The translations under genes and the position numbers were made by a program. 48,295 bases of DNA, taken from Wenjunlia vitaminophila DSM 41686. GTDB taxonomy: Bacteria; Actinomycetota; Actinomycetes; Streptomycetales; Streptomycetaceae. The stretch is taken from positions 315 to 48,609 of the forward strand of contig NZ_KB904681.1 of the NCBI RefSeq assembly GCF_000380165.1. The letters run 5' to 3'. The notes under the pieces were generated by a model. It saw only the letters and a program-made list of their open reading frames with translations, ran no database searches and was not told where the DNA came from. Shown piece by piece: positions 13,875 to 35,894 of the stretch. Position 1 is the first letter of the stretch. Every line of letters starts with the position of its first letter.

Positions 13875-13906
13875 GCCACCGGTCCCGGCGCGCCGGGACC
13901 GGTGGC
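13875..13906. terminator. 32-base perfect palindrome after ribF
   Basis: 13875-13890 is the exact reverse complement of 13891-13906, giving up to 14 paired bases with a minimal loop. It follows ribF by 71 bases and separates the housekeeping operon from the ESX module. An upstream GTG at 13902 of the next gene falls inside it, which supports the later start at 13941. Confidence 0.75.
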
Positions 13907-13940
13907 AGCGGACCACACACGGGAGTGGAGGGGGCCAGGG

Positions 13941-14414
13941 GTGGGGTTCGGTGAAGTCCGCGACCAGTTGGACGCGGGCAGTCAGGGAATCATGAACTTT
14001 CTAGCGGACTTACAGACGCTGGAAAGTTTCAAGAAGCGCATCGACAATGTCTTGTCCGACCTGGAGACTTCCGCGGCCGGACCGAACAATATTGGCCAGG
14101 ACGCCCTGTCCTCGAGCCACTTCGGGGTCGGCTTCAGCGAGGCGTCGGCGCTGTTCGGGGCCTACCGGACGGTTCACAGTGAACTGGAGAAGTTGTCCAA
14201 GGTCTTCGCCGACCAGATCGAAGCCATGAGCATGTTGGTCAACATGGCGAACAACGACTACCGGAACGTGGACGAGGAACAACGTCTGCGCCTGTGGGAG
14301 ATCAGGCGATCCACGAAGGCGTACGCCGAGACCCACCGCCAGGCCGCCGACGAGCACCCGAAGGACACGGGCAAGCCGACGCCGGAAGAGAGCACCGCGG
14401 GCGGCACGGCCTGA
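13941..14414 (+). CDS. putative ESX/type VII secretion substrate, EspC- or WXG-like
   Basis: 157 aa from GTG 13941, chosen because AGGGGG stands about 6 bases upstream. The body is helical (LQTLESFKKRIDNVLSDLET ... ASALFGAYRTVHSELEKLSK ... MLVNMANNDY), the hairpin architecture of small ESX substrates. Y-R-N-V-D at residues 107-111 matches the general mycobacterial secretion signal YxxxD/E, placed after the second helix. There is no WXG tripeptide. A charged, Pro-rich tail follows. It lies 51 bases upstream of a large WEG-containing protein, so the two may be a co-secreted pair. The call rests on motif and context, not on a recognised family. Confidence 0.58.
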   Translation: MGFGEVRDQLDAGSQGIMNFLADLQTLESFKKRIDNVLSDLETSAAGPNNIGQDALSSSHFGVGFSEASALFGAYRTVHSELEKLSKVFADQIEAMSMLVNMANNDYRNVDEEQRLRLWEIRRSTKAYAETHRQAADEHPKDTGKPTPEESTAGGTA

Positions 14415-14465: not shown

Positions 14466-16028
14466 ATGGGTGATCCAGGTGCGAATGAGGCGCCGAGTTA
14501 CAGCGCAACAACGGACTTCGAGTCAAAATCACATGAGGAACTCCTGCGGATGGTGCGGGATGCGAACAGTGAACGCGTGTCCCAGTTAGGTCAGACGCTG
14601 GTCGATGCCGGGGCCGACCTGGACCAGATCGGCAGTGACCTGAAGAGGGACATGGGGGCATTGTTGTGGGAGGGCAAGGCGGGCGACGCCTTCCGGGCGT
14701 GGGGCCACAAAGTGGCCATCGCAGCCGAGTACCTCGCCGACTACAGCGACACCGCCGGGCGCTTCATGAAGGACGCTGGTGCGACCCTCGCCGACGTGAA
14801 GAGTGCCATGCCGGAAGTCCCCACGGAGTCCAAGCGCATCGCTGACGCGTACGCCCCGGGCATGTCCGAGGAAGAGAGCATGGCCAAGCTGGGGTACTGC
14901 CCGAGCCCGGAGGCGGTGACCAGGGCCAAGCAGGACACGACCGACGCCCATGCCGAGGCCGTCCGCCAGATGACCAAACTGGGCCAGGCGTACAACATGT
15001 CCAGGGAGATCATCAGCGACCTCGAGCCACCGGAGATCCCGCCACCACCGACCGAGCCAATGCCATCAGTCTATTCTGGAGGGGACGAGTATGCCTCTCA
15101 TGGTCAGGTGGCCTCCAGTGCGCGCGAATATTCTTCTGAATTTACTCGTTACGCGGGTGATAGCGGTGGAATTGTAGATAATTCACCGCACTCGCCTCGC
15201 AGTGGGGTCGGGGATGCGAGTGCTACCGCTGCTAGAATTATGCAGCCCGGTGGCGACGGAATTAATGGTGGGCTCCCTTTGTCTCCCAACACCGGTCTTC
15301 CACAGGTTCCTGAGCCAGCCACCCGTACGGACTCCGTTTCGGTACCAGCCGCGTTGTCAGATCCAGTGACCCATCAATCAGTGGCGAGAACGCCGGCACC
15401 GACTGACGTGCCAGGTGGACCAGTTGTTCCGCCGAATAGCACGTTTGCGCCCAGTCCCCCGAACCCGTCGCGAGGGATTCGCGCTGGAAGTATAGAAACC
15501 AGATCTCGTCGTGGCCTGGATGTTCCATTCATGTCGAGAAGCTCTGGGCCGGCTACCACACCGCGTCTCGGGCCCCGTACTGGCGTCTACGGAGGTCTTC
15601 CTGTATCCGAGTCGGGACCGCGAAACCAGATTCCACGTGGAACCGTAGTTGGATCGGAACAAGGAATGTCGCAGACCGGGGGGCGTCCACCGCTGGTTGG
15701 TGGAATGGGGAATGTGGTTGGCGGGCAACCTTCTGACAACTCGGCAAGTGGTCGTCGGCTGGCCAACGAGCCAGGGGGGGTGGTTGGCTCACCCCGGGGC
15801 TCTCAAAATTCGACCGGAAAGGTATTCACGCCTGGTGGGTCTGGGTTGGTGAGGCGTCAGAGTCAGCCCCACTCTTCTCGGGGAGCTGGGCAAAGTGGGC
15901 GAAGGTCAACAAGTGATGCCGGTGAAGAGAGACAGGAAAGTCGACACGCTTTGGGTGGTAATTCGGCGGAAGGTGATGGCAGTTGGATTGCAGCTAGGCA
16001 TAGGACTGCCCCGCCAGTGATTGAGTAA
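14466..16028 (+). CDS. large WXG100-like ESX protein with low-complexity, low-GC C-terminal half
   Basis: 520 aa from ATG 14466, preceded by GGAGAAGGGGGA. Residues ~20-180 are helical and carry W-E-G at 68-70 between helices (DLKRDMGALLWEGKAGDAF), as in WXG100/PPE-like type VII substrates. From residue ~195 the protein becomes Pro/Ser/Gly/Arg-rich without recognisable domains or a membrane anchor. The DNA changes with it: bases 15121-15180 contain 27 G/C of 60 (45%), far below the flanks. The frame overlaps only the extended, unlikely start of the following mycosin. I infer a secreted or surface protein processed or chaperoned by the adjacent genes; biochemical function is unknown. Confidence 0.62.
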   Translation: MGDPGANEAPSYSATTDFESKSHEELLRMVRDANSERVSQLGQTLVDAGADLDQIGSDLKRDMGALLWEGKAGDAFRAWGHKVAIAAEYLADYSDTAGRFMKDAGATLADVKSAMPEVPTESKRIADAYAPGMSEEESMAKLGYCPSPEAVTRAKQDTTDAHAEAVRQMTKLGQAYNMSREIISDLEPPEIPPPPTEPMPSVYSGGDEYASHGQVASSAREYSSEFTRYAGDSGGIVDNSPHSPRSGVGDASATAARIMQPGGDGINGGLPLSPNTGLPQVPEPATRTDSVSVPAALSDPVTHQSVARTPAPTDVPGGPVVPPNSTFAPSPPNPSRGIRAGSIETRSRRGLDVPFMSRSSGPATTPRLGPRTGVYGGLPVSESGPRNQIPRGTVVGSEQGMSQTGGRPPLVGGMGNVVGGQPSDNSASGRRLANEPGGVVGSPRGSQNSTGKVFTPGGSGLVRRQSQPHSSRGAGQSGRRSTSDAGEERQESRHALGGNSAEGDGSWIAARHRTAPPVIE

Positions 16029-16119
16029 GCAGTGCTTTCGACGATCTTCTACACCGGTGGCCTCGCAAGTTCTGACTGCGAGGCCACCGGCACATTACTT
16101 GAAGGGTGACAAGCAGTTA

Positions 16120-17406
16120 ATGGGGTACTGCAAGAACGGGTATTCAGGTAGTGGTTTTCTGCGTTTCCTGGGTGTGTGCGGTGCCTTGTTGGTCTGCGGT
16201 GGCATGTTAGCGCCACCAGCATACGCAGATTCTGTACGTGATCACCAGTGGCACCTTGATGCCATGAAGGCCGAAGAAATGTGGAAAACAAGCACTGGTG
16301 AAGGGGTCGTGATTGCTGTCATCGATAGCGGCGTCGACGCTGGGCGTTCGGAGCTGCGCGGTCAGGTCCTCGAAGGGAAGGATTTCACCTCTCTTCCAGG
16401 TGATGCCCGTGTAGACTCCCAAGGGCATGGAACCAAAATGGCAGAACTGATCGCGAGTACAGGAATTGGGGAAGGGCGTCAAGGTGGGTATGGCCTTGCC
16501 CCCGGCGCCAAGATTTTACCTCTTCGTGTGACATACGAAGGGCCAGACGCCTCGGCCGACTTCCGGTCCCAGGTTACTAAGGCAATTCGCCACGCGGCTG
16601 ACAGTGATGCTCGGATTATCAATATGTCTCTGGGTTTTGCTGTCGGGAGTCGAGAGCTTTCCGAAGCTGTTCGATATGCGATGTCCAAGGACGTGTTACT
16701 TTTTGCTGCTGCGGGCAATGCGGGGGAGTATGATGCTCCCGTCGATCACCCTGCGGCCACTATTGGGGTCGTCGCTGTGGCGGCTCTTGGGCGTGACGTT
16801 CGGGCGACCGCATCGTCCCAACATGGACCCGAGGTTGATCTCTCTGCGCCTGGTGAGGAGATTGTGACCTCCTGTGGTCACCGTAGCGGCTACTGCATTG
16901 GGGAAGGCACAAGCGACGCCACTGCTCTTGCCTCGGCTTCCGCTGCCCTCATCTGGTCCAAGCACCCGGACTGGACGGCGAACCAGGTCCTTCGGGTCAT
17001 GATCAATACTGCTGGTGGACCAACTGATGGTGTCGAGCGAAATTACTACATCGGTTACGGCGCCGTCCGTCCTCGGATCGCTCTGACCAATCCCGGTGAC
17101 CCGGGGCCGCCGGATGTCAGCCCCCTGCCCGAGGTTGTAGCCGCGCAGAAGGCGGAGGAGAAGGCGCAGGACAAGCGTGAGGCGTCGGCGAAGCCGGACG
17201 CCGACGGGCGCGGGCCGGCGGTGAAGGAGAGTGCTTCGGCGGTCGCGGTGCAAGGCGAGGACGACGGTGGTCCGGTGATGTGGGCGGCTGCCGGGGCCGG
17301 AGTGCTCGTGGTCGGCGCTGGACTCGGCTTCGTGTTGACGCGGCGGCGGAGGAGTGCGCAGCAGTCGGCCGCGGGGTTCGGGCCACCGCCGAGCTCATGG
17401 CGCTGA
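16120..17406 (+). CDS. mycP: mycosin-type S8 serine protease (first copy)
   Basis: 428 aa from ATG 16120. The start is followed by a signal peptide (FLRFLGVCGALLVCGGMLAP, cleavage after AYA near residue 36). Subtilase residues are Asp69 (VIDSGVD), His103 (GHGTK), oxyanion Asn200 (AAAGNAG) and Ser265 (EGTSDATALAS); the Pro usual in GTSxAAP is absent. A Pro/Lys/Glu-rich linker leads to a C-terminal membrane helix (MWAAAGAGVLVVGAGLGFVL) and a basic tail, giving the mycosin layout: protease outside, tail in cytosol. Mycosins are structural and processing parts of ESX systems. Most of the gene is lower in GC than its surroundings; the last ~100 codons return to high GC. Confidence 0.88.
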   Translation: MGYCKNGYSGSGFLRFLGVCGALLVCGGMLAPPAYADSVRDHQWHLDAMKAEEMWKTSTGEGVVIAVIDSGVDAGRSELRGQVLEGKDFTSLPGDARVDSQGHGTKMAELIASTGIGEGRQGGYGLAPGAKILPLRVTYEGPDASADFRSQVTKAIRHAADSDARIINMSLGFAVGSRELSEAVRYAMSKDVLLFAAAGNAGEYDAPVDHPAATIGVVAVAALGRDVRATASSQHGPEVDLSAPGEEIVTSCGHRSGYCIGEGTSDATALASASAALIWSKHPDWTANQVLRVMINTAGGPTDGVERNYYIGYGAVRPRIALTNPGDPGPPDVSPLPEVVAAQKAEEKAQDKREASAKPDADGRGPAVKESASAVAVQGEDDGGPVMWAAAGAGVLVVGAGLGFVLTRRRRSAQQSAAGFGPPPSSWR

Positions 17407-17445: not shown

Positions 17446-17475
17446 GAGCCCGGGAGGTTGCGATCTCCCGGGCTC
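17446..17475. terminator. bidirectional hairpin between mycosin and XRE genes
   Basis: GAGCCCGGGAG (17446-17456) pairs perfectly with CTCCCGGGCTC (17465-17475), 8-base loop, followed on the plus strand by TTGCGTTT. It lies between convergent genes. Confidence 0.82.
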
Positions 17476-17536: not shown

Positions 17537-17812
17537 TCACGCGGTGAGCGCCTGGTCGTCCTCGGTAGTGGGTTCCGCGCAGGCCGCGGCCAAGTGCTCC
17601 AGGGAGATCCCCAGCGCGGTGGCCAAGGCCGTGACGGTGAAGAAGGCCGGGGTGGGTGCACGTCCGGTCTCGATCTTCCGCAGGGTTTCGGCCGACACTC
17701 CGGCGGCCGCGGCCACCTCCACCATGCTGCGGTCGCCGCGGGCCTCTCGCAGCAGGGCGCCGAGGCGCTCACCGCGGCGCCTTTCCTCTGGGGTCAATGG
17801 GGTCCTCACCAT
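17537..17812 (-). CDS. XRE-family helix-turn-helix regulator
   Basis: 91 aa from ATG 17812. The segment RLGALLREARGDRSMVEVAA AAGVSAETLRKIETGRAPTP spells a Cro/C1-type helix-turn-helix (recognition helix around AETLRKIETG), and the C-terminal helices (TVTALATALGISLEHL) complete the XRE fold. It is divergent from the methionine aminopeptidase gene, and the 58-base gap between the starts holds the palindrome ATACCGGTAT, a likely autoregulatory operator. XRE/map divergent pairs occur in streptomycetes; the inducing signal is unknown. Longer in-frame starts would run into the map gene and are rejected. Confidence 0.85.
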   Translation of the reverse strand: MVRTPLTPEERRRGERLGALLREARGDRSMVEVAAAAGVSAETLRKIETGRAPTPAFFTVTALATALGISLEHLAAACAEPTTEDDQALTA

Positions 17813-17825
17813 ACCCGTGATACTA

Positions 17826-17835
17826 ATACCGGTAT
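17826..17835. promoter_or_regulatory. palindromic operator candidate between XRE gene and map
   Basis: ATACCGGTAT is a perfect 10-bp palindrome, 13 bases upstream of the XRE start and 35 bases upstream of map. It overlaps a TATAAG sequence (17833-17838) that could be a -10 box for map. This AT-containing island is unusual in the local high-GC context. Confidence 0.5.
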
Positions 17836-17870
17836 AAGAATTGGAGCCTAGCGGGCCGAGGAGTCGCGCC

Positions 17871-21718: not shown

Positions 21719-22495
21719 TCAGTCCACCCGCCGTGGCGCCCCCAAGAGCGCCGTCTCCGCCTCCGTCGGCTGGGTCATGACGAGTTGCCGGTCGCGTCTG
21801 GTGCACCACAGGGTGACATTGTCACCGAGCGTTGACAGCGTCCGCACCTCTGCTTGCGGCAGCCGCAGCAGATCGCCGACCACGGCGGCCTCCTGCGGGG
21901 ACACCCGCTGCACACCGACCAACGCGGCGGAGGCGATCAGTCGGGGCGCCGTCGGACCCAGGTAGGGCAGGACCGTCAGCACCGACTGCCAGGGCCCGGC
22001 GGCCAGCCGACTCCGCGGTGGGCGGGCCCCACAGTCCCGCACGACCAGCACCGGATTGGACACCGAGGGGCCCTGCGGGGCCACCTGACCCACCGCGTGC
22101 ACCGACACGCACTGCATGCCGCCGCCGGCCGCCTGCGCCATGGGCTGCCACACCGGGCCGCGTCCGGTCTCCACCGCCACCCGCGCGCCCGTCGCCACGG
22201 CCCGCAACGCGAACACCTGCGCCGTCCACAACCCGCCGACCAGCAGCACGTCGAACTGCTCGGGGCGGAAGAGGCCCAGCACCGCCGGCTGCTCGTGGCG
22301 GTCGATGCCGATGACCACGCCGTCGTCGCTCACCGGGAGGGCGATCCCTGACGTCTGGTCAGCCGGCACCACGTGCCGGTTCCGCCGCGGCCCGAGGAGT
22401 CCGAAACCCCGTCTCGCCCGACGCGGACGGTCGCCCGGGCCCCCGGGAGAAGGGGCAGGACGGCGTACCGCGGGGGGGACGGTGGGGACAGCCAT
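21719..22495 (-). CDS. conserved type VII secretion cluster protein of unknown function
   Basis: 258 aa from ATG 22495. Its start shares one base with the eccE stop (TGATG), so translation is coupled to EccE. A basic Pro/Arg-rich N-terminus (~45 residues) precedes a globular part with alternating beta strands and helices (DGVVIGIDRHEQPAVLGLF, FDVLLVGGLWTAQVFALRAV, GARVAVETGRGPVWQPMAQA). There are no membrane helices, signal peptide or nucleotide-binding motif that I can see. Its position between eccE and espI suggests a cytosolic partner of the secretion machine, as in streptomycete clusters. Function is unassigned. Confidence 0.75.
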   Translation of the reverse strand: MAVPTVPPAVRRPAPSPGGPGDRPRRARRGFGLLGPRRNRHVVPADQTSGIALPVSDDGVVIGIDRHEQPAVLGLFRPEQFDVLLVGGLWTAQVFALRAVATGARVAVETGRGPVWQPMAQAAGGGMQCVSVHAVGQVAPQGPSVSNPVLVVRDCGARPPRSRLAAGPWQSVLTVLPYLGPTAPRLIASAALVGVQRVSPQEAAVVGDLLRLPQAEVRTLSTLGDNVTLWCTRRDRQLVMTQPTEAETALLGAPRRVD

Positions 22496-23784
22496 CAGCG
22501 GGTTCCTCCCAACGGCAGGGTGGCCAACAGGCCCGGGAGCTGCTCGCGGTCCAGCCGCACCAGGCCGACCCGCACCCCGTTGGCGTGCCGCTCCAACTGC
22601 CGTCGCGCGGTGACCAGTTCGGTGTCGCTTCGGGCGGTGAGCCGGACGTAGCCGGTGAGCGCGGGTGAGTGCCCCGTGCCCCTGGTCGCGATCAGGCTGA
22701 ATGTGCTGGCCAGGGTGGGGACGGAGGTCAAGAGGTTCACCAGGTCGGGACTGCGGCCGGCGGGGAGCTGCGGCCAGCGGCCTATCCAGTAGGTGGTGTG
22801 CCAGCGGTCATCACAGCGCCAGGTCCGTGACGTCTCCACGGTGCGGCGGGACGTCTGCTGGTCCCCGCGGTGGGTGCTGGCCCGGGGATTGGCGCAGGCC
22901 GAGGTGGAGAGGGCCGAGACCAGCTCCGGCTCGTCCAGCACCGTGGCCGTGAACCCGGCCGCGACGAGCCGGCTCGCCAGTTGGTCGGCTGCCCTGAGGA
23001 CTGCCCGCTGGACCCCGCCCAGGCCCCCGCCCCGTGCCTTCACCGCCTCCGGACACAGCTCAGGGTCCAGCTTCAGGGCGACCCAGGTCAGCCGCAGCCC
23101 GGGGGTGCCGGTCTGTGCCTGCAGCGGCGTGTAGGAACGGGCGGCGACCGACTGCTCCGGCAGGTGCGTGGCCGGCGCTGGCTGGGTGTGCTGCACCACC
23201 TGGACCGACGCCAGCACGATGTCGTCCACCTCCAGGGCGTCGTGCAGCACCTCCAGGGGGAGCGGGCGCTGACCCCGCAGCGGCCGGAGCGGGGCGTCCC
23301 TGCCCTGCACGAGCAGCACCACGGTGAGGAACGTGCCGTCGCCGACCATGCCCACCGAACGGTGGTCACGGTCGATGTAGGTGTAGGTGCGCAGCGCCGG
23401 GTCGCACTCGACGGCCGGCGCCAGACCGGGGTCGACCCCCACCGGCGGCGGCTCCGCGGCGGCGGCCCGGCGGCGGGACCGCAGCGCCAGGACCGTGCCC
23501 AACCACTCAGGCAGCGGCCGGCGGTGCCTGCTCACCACGGCCAGGACCACCAGCACCGCGGCGACCGCGGCGAGTGGCACCAGCACCACGGAGCCCCCCG
23601 CCATGCCCACCAGCACCAGCGCGGCAGCCACCTCGACCAGCACCACCTGCTGGAGCCGCAACGGACCCAGGGTGCCCGGCCGGGGATGCGGTCGGGGCAC
23701 CGCGGACGGGCGTGGACGCCGCGCGGGGGGATGCCCGCCCGACCGCGGCGCGGTCGCCCGCCGTGCCCTGGTAGCGCTGCCCAT
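22495..23784 (-). CDS. eccE: type VII secretion protein EccE
   Basis: 429 aa from ATG 23784, with GAGGGGG upstream. EccE is a peripheral component of the ESX inner-membrane complex. After a basic, Pro-rich N-terminus come two adjacent membrane helices (QQVVLVEVAAALVLVGMAGG and VVLVPLAAVAAVLVVLAVV, around residues 50-90) followed by RHRRPLPEWLGTVLALR and a large soluble domain. YTYIDRDHRSVGMVGDGTFL and WVALKLDPELCPEAVKARGG match the EccE pattern. It is divergent from eccB across a 292-base promoter region. Longer upstream frames are not supported. Confidence 0.87.
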   Translation of the reverse strand: MGSATRARRATAPRSGGHPPARRPRPSAVPRPHPRPGTLGPLRLQQVVLVEVAAALVLVGMAGGSVVLVPLAAVAAVLVVLAVVSRHRRPLPEWLGTVLALRSRRRAAAAEPPPVGVDPGLAPAVECDPALRTYTYIDRDHRSVGMVGDGTFLTVVLLVQGRDAPLRPLRGQRPLPLEVLHDALEVDDIVLASVQVVQHTQPAPATHLPEQSVAARSYTPLQAQTGTPGLRLTWVALKLDPELCPEAVKARGGGLGGVQRAVLRAADQLASRLVAAGFTATVLDEPELVSALSTSACANPRASTHRGDQQTSRRTVETSRTWRCDDRWHTTYWIGRWPQLPAGRSPDLVNLLTSVPTLASTFSLIATRGTGHSPALTGYVRLTARSDTELVTARRQLERHANGVRVGLVRLDREQLPGLLATLPLGGTR

Positions 23785-23815
23785 GCCGGTCCGCCCCCTC
23801 GGCTGCGATGAACTT

Positions 23816-23844
23816 GCTGTAACGTCTCCGAACCGTACCGTCAC
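23816..23844 (-). promoter_or_regulatory. candidate eccE promoter
   Basis: On the minus strand GTGACG (23844-23839) and TACAGC (23821-23816) are separated by 17 bases. Start would be near 23810, 26 bases before the eccE ATG. The -10 lacks its final T, so support is moderate. Confidence 0.35.
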
Positions 23845-23877
23845 CGCGCCCCGCCGCGACAGCCGACACCGACCGCC

Positions 23878-23929
23878 TGTGGACAACCACCAAGTCGTGC
23901 GTGATCCCACGACAACGCCCTGTGGACAA
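23878..23929 (+). promoter_or_regulatory. pair of DnaA-box-like sites in the eccE/eccB intergenic region
   Basis: TGTGGACAA occurs at 23878-23886 and 23921-23929, each preceded by CC and followed by C. It is the exact reverse complement of TTGTCCACA, the actinobacterial DnaA-box consensus. The copies are direct repeats with a 43-base period (about four helical turns) and flank a small inverted repeat (GTCGTG/CACGAC, 23894-23913). The second copy lies where the -35 of a possible eccB -10 (TAAGCT, 23943-23948) would be. Confidence 0.6.
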
Positions 23930-24076
23930 CTCGGTTGCCCGGTAAGCTCGTTGATCTTCGTCAGGCCCACCGGCCCGTCCGGTACCCGGGTCCGCGGCCC
24001 CTGACGGCCGCCCGACGGCGGGCGGCATGGTGAGTGCCCACGCCCCGAGCCCGACCGACCACGGGAGACGGCATCC

Positions 24077-25633
24077 ATGGCTTCGCGCAAGGACAAGCTC
24101 AACGCCTACACGTTCGCCAGGCGGCGCACCGTTGCGGCGTTCCTCCAACCGACCCCCTCGGGCTCGGAAGAGGGAGCCCCCCGCCCGCTGCGGGCGGTGT
24201 TGCCGAGTGTCGTGGTGGGAGCCCTGGTGCTGGCCGGGTTCGGAGCCTGGGGCATCATCCGCCCCGCCGCCCCCAAGGGCTGGGACACGCCCGGCGAGTA
24301 CATCATCGTGGGCAGCGAGTCCACCACCCGCTACGTCGTCCTCGAGGACCGGGACGAGAACGGCAAGAAACTGCCCAAGCAACTGCACCCGGTGCTCAAC
24401 TTCGCCTCCGCCAAACTCCTCCTCGACCAGGGCAAGGGCAAAGTCATCAAGGTCAAGGAGTCCGAGATCGACAAACTGCCGCACGGAGCGACCATCGGCA
24501 TCCCCTACGCTCCGGACCGCTTGCCCAAGGCGGACGACGCCGGCAGCACCAAGAAGTGGGCGGCCTGCGTGCGCCCGGTCGCGGGGAGGGACCGGGCGAC
24601 CGACACCGCGGTGTTCGTCCTCGGCGGCAAGGACTCCTCCAAGGTCGAGGGTGAGCGGCGGCTCAGCGGAGCCCAGGCGCTCTACGTGACGGGTCCGGAC
24701 GGCGCCACCTACCTGGTGGACCCCGACGGCACCAGGTTCCTGCTCGGGGGCGAGCACTGGAGGTCCCAACCCGGGGAGACCATGGACCTGCTGCGCCGCG
24801 CCCTGTTCGGCGAGGAGGCCCGTCCGCAGCAGGTGACCGAGGCGTGGCTGGACTCGCTCAACGACGGCGGCGCCATCTTCTTCCCGCAGGTCCCGGGCCT
24901 GGGCGAGACGTCGACAGCGCAGGGGCTGGACGAGGACCACAACACGGTCGGCATGGTGTTGAAGGCGTCGCCCGGGGGACGGGTGCAGTACTACGCGGTG
25001 CTGCGCGACCGGGTGGAGCTCGTCTCCGACTTCACCGCCAACCTGCTGCTGAAGGACGAGCGCACGCTGGACGCCTACGACGGCGCCGCACCCCGGGCGC
25101 GCGAGGTGGCGCTGGCGTCGATCCATCCGGACCGCACCCCGTTCCCCGGCGGCATGGACTGGCCGGAGGAGATCCCGGACCCGGTCAACACCGAGGAGTC
25201 AAGGGACGGCAGGCGCACCGTCGCATGCAGCGTGTACCGGGGCTCGGTGAACAGCAAGGGGCGCCCCGGCCTCAGTGTGTGGGCGGGCACCGACTACCCC
25301 ACCACGATCGTGGAGGGCGCCACCAGCGCCTACGTCACGCCCGGCACCGGGCTCCTGTACCGCGAGGTCACCGGCGACCCGAAGAGTGGTCCCCTCTACC
25401 TGGTCACCGACACCGGCCTGCGCTACTCGGTGTCGAACAACGACGACAGCGAGGCGGAACGACCAGTCACCGGCGACCGCGACGAGCAGCAGGCGGGCGA
25501 ACGTGCGGCGCAGATCCGACTGGGCTACGACAAGGTTGACCCCTTGCCGCGGGTTCCGTTGAACTGGTCGGAGTTCCTGTCCAAAGGACCGGCCCTGAAC
25601 ACCCGCAGCGCCGCCCAGCCGCAGGGGTCCTGA
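24077..25633 (+). CDS. eccB: type VII secretion protein EccB
   Basis: 518 aa from ATG 24077, with GGGAGA 8 bases upstream. EccB is the single-pass, largely periplasm-side ATP-binding or structural subunit of the ESX core complex. The N-terminus (MASRKDKLNAYTFARRRTVA) is the EccB signature, followed by one membrane helix (VLPSVVVGALVLAGFGAWGI, residues ~41-60). The long extracytoplasmic domain contains repeated beta-rich units (EYIIVGSESTTRYVVLEDRD; ALYVTGPDGATYLVDPDGTR) and two cysteines, Cys at CVRPVAG and CSVYRG, that could form the family's disulfide. It is followed after 198 bases by the second mycosin. Confidence 0.94.
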   Translation: MASRKDKLNAYTFARRRTVAAFLQPTPSGSEEGAPRPLRAVLPSVVVGALVLAGFGAWGIIRPAAPKGWDTPGEYIIVGSESTTRYVVLEDRDENGKKLPKQLHPVLNFASAKLLLDQGKGKVIKVKESEIDKLPHGATIGIPYAPDRLPKADDAGSTKKWAACVRPVAGRDRATDTAVFVLGGKDSSKVEGERRLSGAQALYVTGPDGATYLVDPDGTRFLLGGEHWRSQPGETMDLLRRALFGEEARPQQVTEAWLDSLNDGGAIFFPQVPGLGETSTAQGLDEDHNTVGMVLKASPGGRVQYYAVLRDRVELVSDFTANLLLKDERTLDAYDGAAPRAREVALASIHPDRTPFPGGMDWPEEIPDPVNTEESRDGRRTVACSVYRGSVNSKGRPGLSVWAGTDYPTTIVEGATSAYVTPGTGLLYREVTGDPKSGPLYLVTDTGLRYSVSNNDDSEAERPVTGDRDEQQAGERAAQIRLGYDKVDPLPRVPLNWSEFLSKGPALNTRSAAQPQGS

Positions 25634-25724
25634 CGGTGCGGCCTGGTTCAACCCCCGGACCGCCGGGGACCGAGCCCGCCTGGCCGGGAACGTCATGGCC
25701 AGGTAACCGTTGGGACGCTCGGCT

Positions 25725-25753
25725 TTGGGCGGTCAGACACGGGTGGCTAGGGT
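25725..25753 (+). promoter_or_regulatory. promoter of the second mycosin
   Basis: TTGGGC (25725-25730), 17 bases, TAGGGT (25748-25753). The predicted start is near 25760, about 70 bases before the coding region. The pattern closely matches the esx-pair promoter at 27109-27137. Confidence 0.6.
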
Positions 25754-25831
25754 GCCACCGGGGGCAGCCGGCGCGGGTGCCGTCGGCCGGCCGGTTGGCC
25801 TGCCGGGTACCGGGGAGGGAAACGAGTCCAC

Positions 25832-27073
25832 TTGGGAACCCACGTCGTAAGCGGTCGGGTCGGCCATGTGCTCGCGAGCACGGGCGCGGCAGCCGCCCTG
25901 GTGCTGGCAGCGGGTTCGGCCGCCCCTGATGCCGCCGCCGGTGCGGGATCACCCAACGGTGCGGGCACCCGGACGACCGGCAACGAGCAGTGCACGTTTC
26001 CGGCCAAACCCATAAGGGGGACTCCGTGGGCACTGCAGCGGGTGCTGCTCGACCAGCTCTGGCAGGACACCAGGGGCCGCGGTGTCACCGTGGCGGTCAT
26101 CGACACCGGTGTGGACGACAGCAACGACCAACTGCGCGACGCCGTTGACCCCGACCACGGACTGGACCTCATCGAGAAGAAGGGCGACGGCACCAACGAC
26201 CTGGTCGGCCACGGCACCAAGGTCGCCGGCATCATCGCCGCCAGGGAGGCCGAGGGCACCGGCTTCGTGGGGCTCGCCCCGGAGGCCACGATCATGCCGA
26301 TCAGGCAGAACGACGGTCAGCGCAACGGCACCGCGTCCAACATGGCGACAGCCATCCGACACGCCGTGGACGAGGGCGCCGGCGTCATCAACATCTCCCA
26401 GGACACCACCAAACCGCTGCGCAACGACTCCGTGCTGGCACAGGCCGTGCAGTACGCGGTCCAGAAGGACGTCGTGGTGGTGGCCTCCGCGGGGAACGAC
26501 GGGGCCGACGGGAAGGCGCGGAACACGTACCCGGCCGCGCTGCCCGGTGTCCTTGCGGTGGGTGCCTCGGACCGCAACAACGAGCGGGCCACCTTCTCCC
26601 AGGCCGGTGAGTTCGTCGGCGTGACCGCGCCCGGCGTGGACATGGTCTCCACCGTGCCGCTCGGCGGTCACTGCGTGGACAACGGCACCAGCTTCTCCGC
26701 CCCCTATGTGGCCGGGGTCGCCGCCCTGCTCAGGGCCAAGCACCCCGACTGGAAGAACAACGAGGTCATCGCGCAGATCCAGCAGACCGCCCAGCGCACC
26801 GCGCTGGGGCACGACCGGTTCGTGGGCTGGGGTGTGGTGGATCCGGTCAAGGCCCTCACCGAAGACGACCGGCCCCTCCCGGAGCCGGTGCCCGACACCG
26901 GCCTGGTCAAGAGCTCGCACGAGGTGGTCCCGCGACCGCTGACCCTCGGGGAGACCCCCCAGGAACGCAAGGAACGGATCGCCGTCTACACCGTTGCCGC
27001 GGGCGGAGCCGGAGTTGCCCTCCTGGTGGGGGGCAGCGTGGCGCTGCGGGACTGGCGCAGAAGAAAACAGTGA
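25832..27073 (+). CDS. mycP: mycosin-type S8 serine protease (second copy, in the core cluster)
   Basis: 413 aa from TTG 25832; the start is uncertain (GGGGAGGG lies about 13 bases upstream and GTG 25868 is an alternative). An N-terminal hydrophobic signal (STGAAAALVLAAGSAAPDAA) precedes the N-terminal extension typical of mycosins. The triad is complete and canonical: Asp91 (VIDTGVD), His127 (GHGTK), Asn222 (SAGND) and Ser287 (GTSFSAPYVAG). A Pro-rich linker leads to a C-terminal membrane helix ([18 protein letters not shown]) and RDWRRRKQ in the cytosol. It sits between eccB and the esx pair, the usual position for the mycosin that stabilises the ESX complex. Confidence 0.92.
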   Translation: MGTHVVSGRVGHVLASTGAAAALVLAAGSAAPDAAAGAGSPNGAGTRTTGNEQCTFPAKPIRGTPWALQRVLLDQLWQDTRGRGVTVAVIDTGVDDSNDQLRDAVDPDHGLDLIEKKGDGTNDLVGHGTKVAGIIAAREAEGTGFVGLAPEATIMPIRQNDGQRNGTASNMATAIRHAVDEGAGVINISQDTTKPLRNDSVLAQAVQYAVQKDVVVVASAGNDGADGKARNTYPAALPGVLAVGASDRNNERATFSQAGEFVGVTAPGVDMVSTVPLGGHCVDNGTSFSAPYVAGVAALLRAKHPDWKNNEVIAQIQQTAQRTALGHDRFVGWGVVDPVKALTEDDRPLPEPVPDTGLVKSSHEVVPRPLTLGETPQERKERIAVYTVAAGGAGVALLVGGSVALRDWRRRKQ

Positions 27074-27081
27074 GCTGTTTT
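27064..27081 (+). terminator. short hairpin overlapping the mycosin stop codon
   Basis: AAAACAG (27064-27070) pairs with CTGTTTT (27075-27081) around TGAG; the stop codon TGA lies in the loop. The stem is short but ends in a T run, which is rare in this window. Confidence 0.5.
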
Positions 27082-27108
27082 CGGCCAATTATCGCGGTCA
27101 ACGGTGAG

Positions 27109-27137
27109 TTGGGTATGGGGTCCCCGATGACTAGAGT
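27109..27137 (+). promoter_or_regulatory. promoter of the esx pair
   Basis: TTGGGT (27109-27114), a 17-base spacer and TAGAGT (27132-27137). The start would be near 27144, 48 bases before the first esx ATG. This is one of the best promoter matches in the window, consistent with strong expression of abundant small substrates. Confidence 0.65.
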
Positions 27138-27191
27138 AAGCAGAACGAGGCGCACCGGAAACGGCGTGCCGCGGACTCCAGGGGGTGGACC

Positions 27192-27530
27192 ATGGCAGGA
27201 ACCCAGAAGGTCACATACGACGAACTGCGGACGCTGGAAAACGAGATCGACAGTGTCAGCGTCTCGATGACCAACCAGCTTCAGAAACTCGCTAATGTCA
27301 TCACCCAGCTCGAAGCGGATTGGCGCGGCATCGCGGCCAACACCTTTCGTAGCCAGCAAATGCAGCTCAACGACGACCACGACGCGCTCCGCCGGATTCT
27401 GGACGGTATCAAGCAGGCCGTTCACGACACCAACCTGAGCAGCCAGGCGAACGAGTCCGACGTGTTGCAGAGCCTGCGTTCCATCGACATCAACGGCAGC
27501 GCCTCCGGCAGCGGAATCGCCGGACTGTGA
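27192..27530 (+). CDS. WXG100 family protein, EsxA-like
   Basis: 112 aa from ATG 27192. It has the helix-turn-helix hairpin of WXG100 proteins with W-R-G at residues 44-46 (QLEADWRGIAANTFRSQQMQ), between a first helix (LRTLENEIDSVSVSMTNQL) and a second (HDALRRILDGIKQAVHDTNL). It lacks a YxxxD/E signal, so it is probably the EsxA-like partner that travels with the following protein as a heterodimer. A short Gly/Ser-rich C-terminal tail is present. The two genes are 73 bases apart, behind a strong promoter and before a strong terminator. Confidence 0.93.
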   Translation: MAGTQKVTYDELRTLENEIDSVSVSMTNQLQKLANVITQLEADWRGIAANTFRSQQMQLNDDHDALRRILDGIKQAVHDTNLSSQANESDVLQSLRSIDINGSASGSGIAGL

Positions 27531-27603
27531 GGGCGCCGGTGGGGGCGTGCGTTCGACGCGCTGCTCACCGGCACCGTTCGAACTTCTTCACCGAGGGGGA
27601 GTC

Positions 27604-27900
27604 ATGTCCGAACTCAAAGTCACCTACGCGTCCCTGGACACGGCGGCTGCCGACATCCGTGCCGCCGCGAGTGACCTGCGCCGACAGCTCGACGACCTGC
27701 TGAGCAAGGTGAGGAGGGTCGCCAACACCTGGGAGGGCGACACCTTCCAGGCTTTCCAGGCCACGCAGAACGAGTGGAACCGGCGGGCCGAGCACATGCA
27801 GCAGGTACTCAACGACGTCGCCACCCGGGTCCAGAACGCCAGTGGCAGTTACGCGGCGACCGACCGAAAGACCTCGACGTACTTCGACGGCGGGTACTGA
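27604..27900 (+). CDS. WXG100 family protein, EsxB-like
   Basis: 98 aa from ATG 27604, with GAGGGGGA upstream. W-E-G at residues 43-45 (RRVANTWEGDTFQAFQATQN) marks the turn between two long helices. Y-A-A-T-D at 83-87, after the second helix, is the YxxxD/E secretion signal of EsxB/CFP-10, recognised by the EccC ATPase. The size and layout are typical of the ~100-residue family. Together with the preceding gene it forms the signature substrate pair of the secretion system. A GC-rich hairpin follows the stop by 14 bases. Confidence 0.95.
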   Translation: MSELKVTYASLDTAAADIRAAASDLRRQLDDLLSKVRRVANTWEGDTFQAFQATQNEWNRRAEHMQQVLNDVATRVQNASGSYAATDRKTSTYFDGGY

Positions 27901-27914
27901 TTGGTCCACCCGCG

Positions 27915-27950
27915 GGAGCGGGTGCTTCCCTCACGGGGGGCACCCGCTCC
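27915..27950 (+). terminator. terminator after the esx pair
   Basis: GGAGCGGGTGC (27915-27925) pairs perfectly with GCACCCGCTCC (27940-27950), 14-base loop. It separates the esx pair from the converging minus-strand operon. Confidence 0.85.
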
Positions 27951-27989
27951 TTGCTGACCGCCCCAGCCGTTCATCCGGGTAGTGCCGTC

Positions 27990-28694
27990 TCAACGGACGT
28001 CTTTGAGTACTTCCTCGACGGAAATGGGGCGGAGGTCGGGACTGGCCGGGAGGTTGGCGTCGGAGCACTTCAGTGCGGCGGCCAGCCGGCGGGACACGGA
28101 GTGGAGGATGAGCATCTGGTCCTTGGCCTGCGCCTCGGGGTCGGCGTGGCGGTATGCGACGGTGAGATGGGCTTCGATCCATTTCGCGCCTGTTTCCGGC
28201 TGTTTCGGACCCTCGCACGCGAACTCGAGACGGGCGCCGTAGCGGCGTGACGACTCTGCGCGAACCCCGATCCGATAATATGTGAGTTCGGGTTTCAAGC
28301 CTCGTTCCGGCGACATTTTGCGAGGATCGACATCGGACCAGCGGAACTCGATGACAAGCGCCGGATAGATGCTGTCGGTATCCTCGAGTAGGCAAAGCGT
28401 GGCGTACTCGGCGTACTGGCGGGGATTGTTCCGTTTCCACAGCCTGGACAACTCACGAACGACTCCGTTCAATGTGCGTGGTGTGGACTCATGGAACCCT
28501 TCATCCTCCGCGAGTCGTTCCAGGGCTGCCGACGCGGGGGGGCTGAGTGTGCCATCACACACCTCTCGCGCGGACAGTCTGTCCTCGGTGTCGCCATCTG
28601 AGCACGCGCTCGCGACCAGAACGGCGAGCATGGTGAGAAGTGTCACCAAGATGCGGATGCCCTTAACACTTTCATGCTCACGCCGCTTCATCAC
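27990..28694 (-). CDS. putative lipoprotein downstream of the DUF6571-like gene
   Basis: 234 aa from GTG 28694 (or ATG 28691), overlapping the preceding gene's stop (GTGA). The N-terminus is a signal sequence (IRILVTLLTMLAVLVASAC) with a lipobox-like ASAC; Ala at -3 is slightly atypical. The mature part has two cysteines or more (REVCDGT, TLCLLED, FACEGP, LKCSD) that could form disulfides, and a predicted alpha/beta body with no family I recognise. GC is lower than average: bases 28261-28320 have 31 G/C of 60. Coupling to the large upstream gene suggests a partner, perhaps a surface receptor or immunity-like protein; this is inference. Confidence 0.7.
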   Translation of the reverse strand: MMKRREHESVKGIRILVTLLTMLAVLVASACSDGDTEDRLSAREVCDGTLSPPASAALERLAEDEGFHESTPRTLNGVVRELSRLWKRNNPRQYAEYATLCLLEDTDSIYPALVIEFRWSDVDPRKMSPERGLKPELTYYRIGVRAESSRRYGARLEFACEGPKQPETGAKWIEAHLTVAYRHADPEAQAKDQMLILHSVSRRLAAALKCSDANLPASPDLRPISVEEVLKDVR

Positions 28695-31027
28695 TCGTCC
28701 TCATGAGGATTGTTGATCGGTGCGTCATTCCATGCTGCACGGCCGTCGAGCATCTCTCCGAGGAACTTGCTGTGAAGCTCTTTCCTCTGTTTATCGGTCC
28801 ACTCCGTGTCACCCCAGTAACTGATGCTCGCCGCAGTAGTCGCGCCATGCCCCTCTAGCAAGATCTTCCTCTGGAGTGTCTCGACGGTGTCGCCGCTGTC
28901 AGCCTCGTGCTTACTTGCCCCGTCGTCGATCTGTTGGCCGATAAACGTGGTGAAGACGGAACCGACGGTGTCCGCTGCCACCGGGACGGCGACCGCGCCG
29001 GCGGCACCGCCGGAGTACACGGTCACGCCCGTGCCGACCGCCGCGCCCACCACCCACTTGCCCCACTCGCCGAGCCGGCCCAGTTCCTTCTTCTGCTGCT
29101 CGTCGTCGCCGGCGTAGTCCTGGGTGATCTGCTCCATGCGTGCGTGGTCGAGGATTGCGTGCGTCTGCGCGCCCACGCGGACCGCTGTCAACGAGTCCGT
29201 GAGGTCCATGTCCGACACCGGCCCCGGTGTGCCGGGTGGTGGGGCCTTGGCGTCCAGGACGCTCACCGTGTAGATCTGCTGGGCCGCGGACAGCGCCTCG
29301 TGCCCGGCCTTGCTCTGCCCCACAGTGGAGAGGAACTGCGCCGAGTCCTCATAGCTGAAGAGCGGCACCCCGTTTCCGAACTTCTTGGCGAAGGGAGAAG
29401 GAGGAACATCGATCTCGTCGTTTCCCTCGGCGATCCGCGTGGCGCCCCCGTAGTCGTCGAGCCCCCGGTTGAGCTCGTCGATCCACGCTCCGCCGATGCG
29501 GCCGAGGTTGTCCCCGATGCCCGGCAGCCGGTGCATCAGGTCGTTGTCCCCGCCGAACGCGCTGACGACCCGCTTCATGATGTCCGCGTTCTCCCGCGTG
29601 CGGTTGTCGACGTGGTCGTCCAGCAGTGCGTCGGGGTGGCCGGGGTCGCTCTGGTGGCCCGTTGTCGCGGCCTCCAGGGCGCTGCCGAGATAGTTGTGCC
29701 CCTGGACCTTGTCGGGGTTGCCACCCTCAGCGGGGTCCGGCTGCCAGTTGCGTTCCTCCACCAGGTAGTCGAAATGGTCGAGCGCGTCGTCGTCCTTCGG
29801 TTTCCTGAAGAACTCGGCGGCTGCGTCGGGGTTGTGCCCCAGGGCAGCCAGGAACCCGTTCACCGGGTCCCGGCCCCGGTCGTTCTTGTCGGTGAAGTTC
29901 AGGTACGAGGTGTTGGCGCCGCTCGTCCAGACCGAGTGGGAGCCGCTCGTGCGACGCTGGTCGTGCTCCAGCAGGGCGTGACCGTAGGTGTTGAGGAATC
30001 CGTTGTCGTACTTCCCGTACCGCATGAGGTTGCTCATGACCTGGAAGTAGCTGGGCTTACCCGCGAAGTCGGCCTCGAGGGTCCTGGGGCCGAGTCTGAC
30101 GATCTCCTTCTCCCAGGTGTCCATCGCCGGGCTGTCGTACCGTGTGGCGGCTGCCAGGGCGGTGCCGAGGTTCCTCTGGAAGGTGCCGAGCAGCGCCATC
30201 CGGCTGTCGTCGGGACGGGTACCGGGCCGCTGCGGATCAGCGAGTTCCGCCCAGAACTCCAGGGTTCCCTTCGATCCCAGCGCAGTGGCGACGTGCTGCC
30301 CGAACACCGGGTCGTTGCGGTGGGTCGCCGTGAGCTCGTTGAGCTCGGTGAGTTGCTCGTCGGACACGCGGTGGCCCTCGCCGGTCAGCTCGACGAACCT
30401 CCTGGCGTCCCTGAGCACGGCGGCGCGGCCCTTGCGGGCGCCGGCGATGCTGTTGTAGGCGTTCGGGTTGAATCCCGGGTCCGCATCGCCGTTGGGGTCC
30501 TGCGACAGCGCCCAGTACAGCGCGTCGTCGGCGTCGGTCGCGGTGCGCAGCGCCCGTCGGATCCGGTCGTTCCACCCCGCGATGGCCTCGGCGTAACCCC
30601 GTGAGTACTCGTCGTACTGCGGGTCACTGCTCGGGATGGCCAGCGAGACGACGCCTGTGGCGTCGATCTTCAGCACGTCGCTGCCGGCGCTGCGCCGATG
30701 GTCGGCGTTCCAGCCCTCGACCTCGTCCAGGGTGTCCAGGAGCGTTTTCTGGGCGCCGCGGAACACGTGGTAGGCGTTGCTGAGCAGTCGGTGGACGTCG
30801 GCCGCCTCGTCGGCCGCGGCGGTGATCTCCTGCTTCACCAGTCGGAGCCGCGGCCACGCCGCGGTGGCCGTCCAGCCTTCGAACTCCACGTCCTGGAGCC
30901 GTTTGAGGACGGTGGACTGGTAGCTGTCCGCTATGCCGTGGAACTTTCCGGGCAGTGTCTTCCAGTCGTCGAGCGCTGCCTTGAGCGGACCTAACTTCGC
31001 GTTCTTGACGGTGTCGAACCCGAGCAT
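28691..31027 (-). CDS. large WXG-like/DUF6571-type protein, candidate ESX substrate or accessory
   Basis: 778 aa from ATG 31027. The N-terminal ~110 residues are a helical hairpin resembling WXG proteins (DVEFEGWTATAAWPRLRLVK near residue 50; no exact WXG tripeptide). The middle is a long helical region (DARRFVELTGEGHRVSDEQL ... LGTFQRNLGTALAAATRY) like DUF6571 proteins of actinomycete ESX loci. Near residues 655-700 a Gly/Ala/Val-rich hydrophobic segment (KWVVGAAVGTGVTVYSGGAA) could insert in membranes. There is no signal peptide or catalytic motif I can identify. It lies 22 bases after the WXG-like gene and overlaps the lipoprotein gene, all downstream of eccC. Confidence 0.72.
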   Translation of the reverse strand: MLGFDTVKNAKLGPLKAALDDWKTLPGKFHGIADSYQSTVLKRLQDVEFEGWTATAAWPRLRLVKQEITAAADEAADVHRLLSNAYHVFRGAQKTLLDTLDEVEGWNADHRRSAGSDVLKIDATGVVSLAIPSSDPQYDEYSRGYAEAIAGWNDRIRRALRTATDADDALYWALSQDPNGDADPGFNPNAYNSIAGARKGRAAVLRDARRFVELTGEGHRVSDEQLTELNELTATHRNDPVFGQHVATALGSKGTLEFWAELADPQRPGTRPDDSRMALLGTFQRNLGTALAAATRYDSPAMDTWEKEIVRLGPRTLEADFAGKPSYFQVMSNLMRYGKYDNGFLNTYGHALLEHDQRRTSGSHSVWTSGANTSYLNFTDKNDRGRDPVNGFLAALGHNPDAAAEFFRKPKDDDALDHFDYLVEERNWQPDPAEGGNPDKVQGHNYLGSALEAATTGHQSDPGHPDALLDDHVDNRTRENADIMKRVVSAFGGDNDLMHRLPGIGDNLGRIGGAWIDELNRGLDDYGGATRIAEGNDEIDVPPSPFAKKFGNGVPLFSYEDSAQFLSTVGQSKAGHEALSAAQQIYTVSVLDAKAPPPGTPGPVSDMDLTDSLTAVRVGAQTHAILDHARMEQITQDYAGDDEQQKKELGRLGEWGKWVVGAAVGTGVTVYSGGAAGAVAVPVAADTVGSVFTTFIGQQIDDGASKHEADSGDTVETLQRKILLEGHGATTAASISYWGDTEWTDKQRKELHSKFLGEMLDGRAAWNDAPINNPHEDE

Positions 31028-31049
31028 GCCGGTGAGCCTCCCCTGTGCT

Positions 31050-31493
31050 TCAGTTCCCCTGGGTTCGTTGACCGAACTGGCTGCTCTGCTCGGTGTCGTG
31101 GGCCTCGTGGTCGAGAGCGGTGTTCTTCAACGGACTGGCGATGTTGTGTTTCAGCATCCGGCTGACGTGGGCGACCTGCACCTTCCAACGCTCCTGGAAC
31201 TCGGCGAACGCGTCTGCCGAACGCCAGCCGCCGAGCCCGGAGGCGATCCGGCGGGTCGCCTTCTCCGCGGCGTCGTCGGCTTCCTCGAAGTCGGACTTGA
31301 CCTTCTCAGCCGCCCTGCCGACGGCGCGGAGTTCAGCCGGGCTCAGGTGCAGCTTGGGCCCCGTGGGGCGTTTCCCGTCGATGCTGTTCAACCGCATCCG
31401 CGTGTCCTGCTCCCGGGCGGCTCGGGTGAGGTTGCCGTCCTCGTCATACCGGAACGGGTTGAGCAGTCGGTCCCAGTCCTTCTCCGGGGTCAT
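31050..31493 (-). CDS. WXG-like helical protein downstream of eccC
   Basis: 147 aa from ATG 31493. Residues ~50-125 form two helices around G-W-R-S (Trp90; LGGWRSADAFAEFQERWKVQ), a variant of the WXG turn. An N-terminal extension of about 45 residues (EKDWDRLLNPFRYDEDGNLT) is charged. No YxxxD/E signal is seen. It begins 48 bases after the eccC stop and precedes the 778-aa protein by 22 bases, so it is a good candidate for that protein's dedicated partner or chaperone. Family unassigned; the WXG-like fold is inferred. Confidence 0.68.
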   Translation of the reverse strand: MTPEKDWDRLLNPFRYDEDGNLTRAAREQDTRMRLNSIDGKRPTGPKLHLSPAELRAVGRAAEKVKSDFEEADDAAEKATRRIASGLGGWRSADAFAEFQERWKVQVAHVSRMLKHNIASPLKNTALDHEAHDTEQSSQFGQRTQGN

Positions 31494-31541
31494 GGTCGGG
31501 TTGTCCCTTCTGTCCTGCGCGGCATCGGTGGGGGGCGTCGC

Positions 31542-35504: not shown

Positions 35505-35894
35505 CTTCGCACCAGCCCTGTCGCTCGTCGCCGTGGCCGTCCCACCGCCCGGGGGACGGGAACCGCCGTACGTGTCTGGGTGCGCACCGGATCACCGAAC
35601 CGGGTGGTTCCGGCCGGCTCGCCGTGCGGGAGACCAGGGAGGGCGGACCTTCCGCGGCACCTCCACCGCACCCTCCCGCCGACCCCCCGGTGACGCTGCG
35701 CGAACCACGATCCTACTGTGCGTGTGCGCACCCGTGCCGGTCGCCTCACGGACGCGGCCCCCCACCAACGAGCCTGGCTGGAACGTGACCTGTCGGCCCG
35801 TCAGCGCGGGACACTGCCGGCTCGGGCGGTGGGCGCAGCGGTAGGGTGGCGCACCGCCGAGCACCACCCGTTGTGACCGAGGGGATCAGAACCG
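35505..35894. other. 390-base divergent region between eccC and eccD
   Basis: No gene is supported. On the minus strand TAGGAT (35715 to 35710) is a -10 candidate for eccC, just beside the inverted repeat GTGCG-TGTG-CGCAC (35718-35731). On the plus strand TAGGGT (35842-35847) is a -10 candidate for eccD, start near 35854. Neither has a good -35. The eccD site GAGGGG lies about 11 bases before its GTG. Confidence 0.45.

Follow-up and report, generated by a model that had tools for sequence, protein, structure and literature searches.

The window studied here, a stretch of 48,295 nucleotides on contig NZ_KB904681.1 of Wenjunlia vitaminophila DSM 41686 (genome of 6.43 Mb in 111 contigs), carries a type VII secretion (ESX) locus and, ahead of the core of that locus, three adjacent genes that we call g1, g2 and the first mycosin, the last of these encoding a subtilisin-like protease. 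Our subject is a block of low G+C content that starts inside g2 and ends inside the first mycosin. The gene order is infB, rbfA, truB and ribF (as we presume from their translations), followed by g1, g2 and the first mycosin, then by a helix-turn-helix gene on the minus strand, an M24 peptidase gene and a ParA-like gene, and then by the ESX core (Table 1). The best explanation for g1, g2 and the first mycosin is that together they are an accessory module of a Streptomycetaceae ESX system.

A sharp low-GC3 block inside two genes

Between positions 15050 and 17100 the window has 58.3% G+C, compared with 70.8% over its whole length, and among 2,051-base stretches sampled every 50 bases the lowest values were at starts 15001 and 15051. 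A first reading of the letters and open reading frames (ORFs) alone (hereafter the original prediction) had reported a fall near 15050 and a recovery near 17100, with 27 G or C bases in 15121–15180 and 35 in 16441–16500; our recount gave the same figures. A two-border maximum-likelihood fit to the G+C content of third codon positions (GC3) in g2 plus the first mycosin put the first border at nucleotide 15,042 (15,021–15,063), which is g2 residue 193, and the second at 17,098 (16,930–17,140), which is mycosin residue 327, the ranges being those of 2 log-likelihood (lnL) units. GC3 was 0.83 before, 0.51 within and 0.84 after the block, and the gain in lnL over a flat line was 48.4, against a maximum of 11.7 among 500 codon permutations. 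Both reading frames stay open across the borders, again as predicted.

Plain G+C was down to about 0.62–0.68 already from 13,750, in g1 and the g2 N-terminal domain; GC3 in g1 was still 0.84 overall. Set against an amino-acid-corrected expectation from 5,227 codons of neighbouring genes, GC3 in the window was lower by 0.45 in the g2 tail, 0.41 in the catalytic part of the first mycosin (residues 38–276) and 0.29 in mycosin residues 281–335, and by 0.09 in both the g2 N-terminal domain and the mycosin C terminus. The second mycosin of the window had normal GC3.

Proteins of the module

No Pfam or NCBIfam family reached its cut-off in g2; Pfam PPE was unmatched and only WXG100_2 was listed, below cut-off. 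A model of residues 1–200 is a helical domain with a mean predicted local distance difference test score (pLDDT) of 93.4, whose six best matches among solved structures were all PPE proteins (Z 11.7–12.8 over 157–169 residues); EspB structures scored Z 8.7–9.3 and unrelated BAR domains reached Z 10.6, and helical bundles with Z below about 13 may share a common arrangement only. The best Foldseek E value for the domain was 0.0035. Searched by sequence against the PDB, g2 N-terminal domains retrieved no PPE or EspB chain, the best hits being two EsxA entries (E 0.0004). The motif W68-E-G70 sits between helices 35–64 and 71–114, with W-x-G in a hairpin turn, and in 38 sequences W68 was nearly invariant and G70 invariant.

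As the original prediction had it, the first border lies where the helical domain gives way to the tail: the last predicted helix ends at residue 184 and the GC3 border is 9 residues past it. Short motifs are common to the tails of relatives (96 aligned), namely PRGTV, GRR.A...GGVVG, FTPGG.GLVR, RPDYL.EDEETW and a VPPVID end, and most are retained in the window, where the EDEETW stretch is unrecognisable. By its modelled fold, g2 is a PPE-like protein; its long tail is probably disordered, and the protein is probably secreted.

The protein encoded by g1 matched no Pfam or NCBIfam family. Its AlphaFold model is helical and of middling confidence (pLDDT 79.5), and we assigned it no fold, the best structural matches (Z 7.5) being unrelated helical proteins. 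The PE family had no match anywhere in the window's genome.

The first mycosin passed the TIGR03921 cut-off narrowly (282.1 bits against 278.75), compared with 358.7 bits for the second mycosin. Its catalytic residues D69, H103 and S265 were invariant in 28 sequences and are spanned by both the Peptidase_S8 profile and an alignment with subtilisin; judged by eye from the translation, a putative signal peptide and a C-terminal membrane anchor look present. The frame opens at a TTG at 16021, and the start at 16120 is our choice. TTA codons, which are rare in Streptomyces and read by bldA, number three in the first mycosin (16207, 16516 and 16696), one in g1, one in g2 and none in the second mycosin.

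Low GC3 across the family

Removal of 12 repeats from 202 modules left 190 rows, made up of 189 relatives and the window; two further repeats (L156 of L006 and L160 of L013, these being our labels for loci) were then removed to give 187 distinct relative modules of g1, g2 and mycosin. Median observed minus expected GC3 in the 189 relative rows was −0.03 in g1, −0.03 in the g2 N-terminal domain, −0.22 in the tail (−0.20 to −0.24 by quarters), −0.19 in the catalytic part, −0.06 in mycosin 281–335 and −0.12 in the mycosin C terminus. The tail was lower in GC3 than the g2 N-terminal domain in 183 of the 187 distinct modules; the catalytic part was lower than that domain in 184/187 and lower than mycosin 281–335 in 176/187. 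Depression in the tail was correlated with depression in the catalytic part (Spearman 0.58) and in the N-terminal domain (0.48). The lowest GC3 of all modules was that of the window, in the tail and in the catalytic part alike.

When rows were fitted individually, 174 of the 189 relatives ran high-low-high. The first border fell within g2 in 167 of these 174, at a median window residue of 196 (interquartile range (IQR) 189–202, to which the unmapped index used for relatives' g2 borders past index 194 adds noise), and the second fell inside the mycosin in 136 of 174 (median residue 241, IQR 211–266). The low-GC3 block is real, sharp and family-wide, and is not a one-off insertion; a single foreign cassette in this strain, as one reading of the original prediction, is not supported, given the pattern shared among these rows.

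Exchange of the block between relatives

Divergence at fourfold sites was measured in 92 of 102 close pairs (74 loci), two identical pairs and eight without g1 having been dropped. Medians were 0.26 in g1, 0.25 in the g2 N-terminal domain, 0.52 in the tail, 0.56 in the catalytic part and 0.33 in mycosin 281–335. As the close pairs share loci, 33 disjoint pairs give the fairer count, and in these the catalytic part exceeded the flanks in 33/33 and the tail in 32/33. In three pairs (L034–L035, L056–L065 and L058–L061) the flanks were more diverged than the tail and the catalytic part. The identity between L035 and L065 was 92–99% in g1 and the g2 N-terminal domain, 40–76% in the tail and catalytic part, 80–90% in the mycosin C terminus and 94–97% downstream, while L035 and L034 were 90–97% identical across the block and differed downstream of it. 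The switches in identity fell at the g2 domain border and close to where the catalytic domain ends.

Trees of 18 loci were compared by the approximately unbiased (AU) test, with p-values that are post hoc since loci and groups were picked after seeing distances. The tree of g1 plus the g2 N-terminal domain recovered L035 with L065 (99/99) and rejected both L034 with L035 (p = 0.0013) and L056 with L065 (p = 0.0009); the catalytic tree grouped L034 with L035 (100/99) and L056 with L065 (100/100), and rejected L035 with L065 (p = 3e-6). Flank and protease trees of the relatives thus reject each other's groupings, the discordance that the original prediction had looked for. Of five flank clades, three recurred in the protease tree; a clade of L034, L035, L056, L065 and L067 was missing from it yet not rejected (p = 0.13), and L042 with L044 was not recovered.

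Nearest neighbours by g2 N-terminal domain matched those by mycosin 281–335 in 47/80 loci and those by the adjacent catalytic part in only 29/80 (discordant loci 28 versus 10, p = 0.005). As a control, the catalytic part of the first mycosin was more diverged than the second mycosin in 42/42 pairs, than EccB in 31/31 and than EccE in 9/9, these pairs sharing loci; the second mycosin of these loci follows the pattern of the flanks. Together, these sequence comparisons indicate that recombination exchanges the block among relatives, inside otherwise conserved genes, and that the low GC3 is caused, or at least accompanied, by this exchange of allele cassettes. It is very likely that the window's own block arrived by the same route.

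Codon content and constraint

In mycosin residues 41–280, columns conserved at 95% or more had a GC3 depression of −0.08 in relatives and −0.35 in the window, and less conserved columns one of −0.12 to −0.13 in relatives and −0.31 to −0.35 in the window. The expectation table for this column test included two doubtful ORFs (30933–33479 and 33525–34889), making expected GC3 too low and understating the effect; contrasts between column classes use this one same table. In the g2 N-terminal domain, 103 of the 164 counted columns were less than 50% conserved and GC3 was normal. Relaxed amino-acid constraint is ruled out as the cause of low GC3, as invariant mycosin codons are depressed too and the variable g2 N-terminal domain is normal, and expression level cannot account for a GC3 step within one gene. 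Divergence at third positions peaks in the block, so no extra constraint acts on them there, and the same peak at fourfold sites rules out overlapping constraint as well. A and T both rise in the block.

Distribution and surroundings of the module

A mycosin search retrieved 80 loci, 79 of them from Streptomyces. With the g2 N-terminal domain of L035 as query, matches were found in 231 of 394 Streptomycetaceae genomes, covering 13 of 17 genera, and among 394 genomes sampled across the class a profile of 38 such domains matched 47, of which 35 belong to the family. Upstream (5′) of g2, g1 was found in 178/202 modules. Of 20 ribF regions, nine contained g2, there downstream of EccB (on the other strand in L160); in the window its placement differs, g2 coming after ribF and before the M24 peptidase gene, ahead of the ESX core. 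G001, the only other genome of the window's genus compared, had no g2 match, and in L142 (from G001) and L149 (from genome G008) no tested ESX gene was found between ribF and a pnp-like gene. Some relatives, the window's congener among them, look to lack the ESX locus at the ribF site. Loci L040, L050 and L151 each hold more than one mycosin related to the first mycosin, possibly a local store of alleles.

Near EccC, a 778-amino-acid ORF (28691–31027, minus strand) had sub-threshold matches to DUF6571 and PPE and is possibly, from these matches, a second PPE-like gene of the locus. The ORFs 30933–33479 and 33525–34889, on the opposite strand to the overlapping EccC, are probably not real genes. 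The inverted repeat between g2 and the first mycosin is absent from the terminator-like elements listed by a terminator scan.

Table 1 Features of the window that are discussed in the text
Feature	Position	Strand	Description
g1	13902..14414	+	170-amino-acid helical protein; partner gene 5′ of g2; left flank of proposed cassette
g2, whole gene	14466..16028	+	Probable PPE-like protein
g2 N-terminal domain	14466..15041	+	PPE-like helical, W-E-G at residues 68–70; left flank of proposed cassette
g2 tail	15042..16028	+	Low-complexity, low GC3, short motifs common to relatives; first part of the block proposed to be swapped
Low-GC3 block	15042..17097	+	Tail, spacer and most of the catalytic domain; two-border fit; proposed allele cassette
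Inverted repeat	16054..16090	.	Spacer between g2 stop and mycosin start; perfect 14-nt arms, 9-nt loop
First mycosin	16120..17406	+	Subtilisin-like (S8); TIGR03921, Peptidase_S8
Mycosin C-terminal part	17098..17403	+	Normal GC3; right flank (recovery of GC3 comes sooner in relatives, around residues 211–280)
Terminator-like hairpin	17446–17475		Just past first mycosin
Helix-turn-helix ORF	17537–17908	−	HTH_31; just past first mycosin
ESX core of locus	21719..37361	.	
EccE	22495–24102	−	
EccB	24077–25633		
Second mycosin	25832–27073		
WXG100 pair	27192–27900		
EccC	31542–35504	−	
EccD	35895–37361		

Discussion

We consider it probable that the block is an allele cassette swapped between strains through conserved flanks. 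Divergent versions of the tail, spacer and catalytic domain would circulate among strains, carried by homologous recombination through g1 and the g2 N-terminal domain on one side and, on the other, through the end of the catalytic domain and the sequence past it; as such recombination uses conserved flanks, reading frames would stay open. Because three of five flank clades recur among the catalytic alleles, exchange appears to be at least partly within clades, and low GC3 would therefore belong to the circulating alleles and not to one low-GC donor. We propose that, where alleles have diverged too far to pair internally, the force that holds GC3 near 0.92 elsewhere no longer acts. That force may be codon selection at full population size or GC-biased gene conversion, an idea put forward for bacteria by Lassalle et al. 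2015 (PMC4450053). Such a failure of pairing would fit a first border this sharp, a GC3 depression that hardly depends on amino-acid conservation, and the joint rise of A and T.

Several observations weigh against a swapped cassette, or limit it. Weaker codon bias alone accounts for part of the excess fourfold divergence, so the tree conflict, identity switches and neighbour test weigh more; the groups put to the AU test were chosen after distances had been seen. Fifteen of the 189 relative rows lack the high-low-high pattern, and the relatives' second GC3 border is diffuse and earlier (median residue 241) than that of the window (327). No swap is demonstrable in the window's genus, where the only compared congener is without g2; the in-frame recombination across tail and protease that the original prediction suggested is thus supported in relatives, through tree conflict and identity switches, and not demonstrable in the window itself. 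Vertical descent of one block with the same borders, which that prediction set against recombination, describes the borders in part (the first is well shared, the second less so) and not the sequence inside, which is not vertically inherited.

The two parts of the block are also imperfectly linked. With limits for 'alike' of 70% identity in the tail and 82% in the protease, the 92 close pairs divided into 20 alike in both, 54 in neither, 12 in the tail only and six in the protease only (odds ratio 15). Tail and protease usually, not always, change together. Exchange as a strict unit is ruled out by L064–L070 (tail 85%, protease 75%) and L060–L204 (tail 46%, protease 84%).

Had low-GC foreign DNA been imported once, in frame, into the window's strain, one would expect what is seen: no other module compared is as extreme as the window, and its block had no close match (53% identity for the best mycosin hit; 51–61% for the best segments among the top matches listed). 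We regard such an import as quite improbable, given that the 174 relative rows carry a low-GC3 block with the same first border, that the window's tail has the family motifs and that its g2 N-terminal domain is equally isolated, at 29% identity to that of L035. A surface protein and its protease could instead be evolving fast under relaxed or diversifying selection, with no recombination and with low GC3 as a by-product; this would agree with the tail and catalytic part being the most divergent segments, and with the presence of likely orthologues of the g2–mycosin pair among unusually divergent core genes of Streptomyces pratensis (PMC4239341). However, the trees conflict, three pairs have a block less diverged than its flanks, and invariant mycosin codons are depressed where the more variable g2 N-terminal domain is not; the same contrast tells against the relaxed selection that the original prediction had put forward, and we think this explanation unlikely to be right by a wide measure.

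Selection for AT-ending codons, or for an overlapping element (slow translation, RNA structure or an antisense gene), has in our view only a very slight chance of being the cause. The low GC3 does cross a gene border and start sharply, and the spacer between g2 and the mycosin holds a perfect 14-nt inverted repeat, but fourfold divergence has medians of 0.52–0.56 in the block against 0.25–0.33 in the flanks, so the sites are not conserved, A and T are both raised, and GC3 is normal in the second mycosin. Polymorphic toxins with WXG heads are known, and a mycosin-like protease is placed in the neighbourhood of the predicted toxin Ntox38 (PMC3482391); the tail could on that pattern be a swapped toxin end released by the protease. 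Yet g2 has no Pfam or NCBIfam toxin family, the tails read share one low-complexity style and motifs, and by inspection, with no dedicated search made, no immunity gene was recognised beside g2, so that we rate a toxin as an improbable candidate.

The allele cassette that we favour has likenesses in known systems. In mycobacterial ESX-1, the PPE-like secreted protein EspB has a long tail that is cut by MycP1, the membrane subtilisin of the same system (PMC5156307), and by analogy the first mycosin may cleave the g2 tail. The g2 N-terminal domain aligns structurally with EspB (at the Z scores given above); EspB is, however, a fused PE-PPE protein, whereas the single PPE-like domain of g2 is accompanied by a separate gene, g1, upstream, and the portion of PMC5156307 drawn on here describes no case in which alleles of tail and protease domain are exchanged jointly. 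Mycobacterial PE/PPE proteins likewise share the PPE fold and a variable low-complexity C terminus with g2, and differ in that g2 has no Pfam PPE match and the window's genome no PE family match. In S. pratensis, Sfla_1620 (a mycosin) and its neighbour Sfla_1621 are among 59 core genes unusually divergent within the species (PMC4239341), and from their description, unaligned, they are most likely orthologues of the first mycosin and g2; the extract of that paper used here gives no cassette, borders, linkage or GC signal. In Firmicute type VII secretion systems the accessory immunity genes esaG and tipC also diversify as conserved blocks allow homologous recombination, but there, as far as the excerpted account goes, between tandem immunity paralogues and not by inter-strain exchange of a substrate tail and protease (PMC9484751). 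A mycosin is also named in a Myxococcus compatibility region (PMC5030687, in part). In the open-access literature we recognised no report of joint exchange of a substrate tail and mycosin domain in Streptomyces, only PMC4239341 being judged relevant. The parts are known; the behaviour is new.

One cassette would keep tail and protease matched, and its diversity may be favoured by a rare-allele advantage, with phage or neighbours recognising the exposed protein. Elsewhere, swapping of this kind is often driven by such recognition. More tentatively, and with some doubt on our part, the cassette could be a substrate–protease recognition locus, a matched lock and key under rare-allele advantage, whose GC3 step would measure how far the high GC of Streptomyces genes depends on recombination between alleles (GC-biased gene conversion), since that high GC disappears just where alleles have diverged too far for pairing. 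What type VII systems do in Streptomyces is still poorly established, and a block that lineages exchange singles out the component in contact with something outside the cell, here one substrate tail and one protease. Within a single gene that carries a GC3 step, gene and transcript are constant and the chance of recombination varies, which offers a setting for the question of how GC content is maintained in bacteria.

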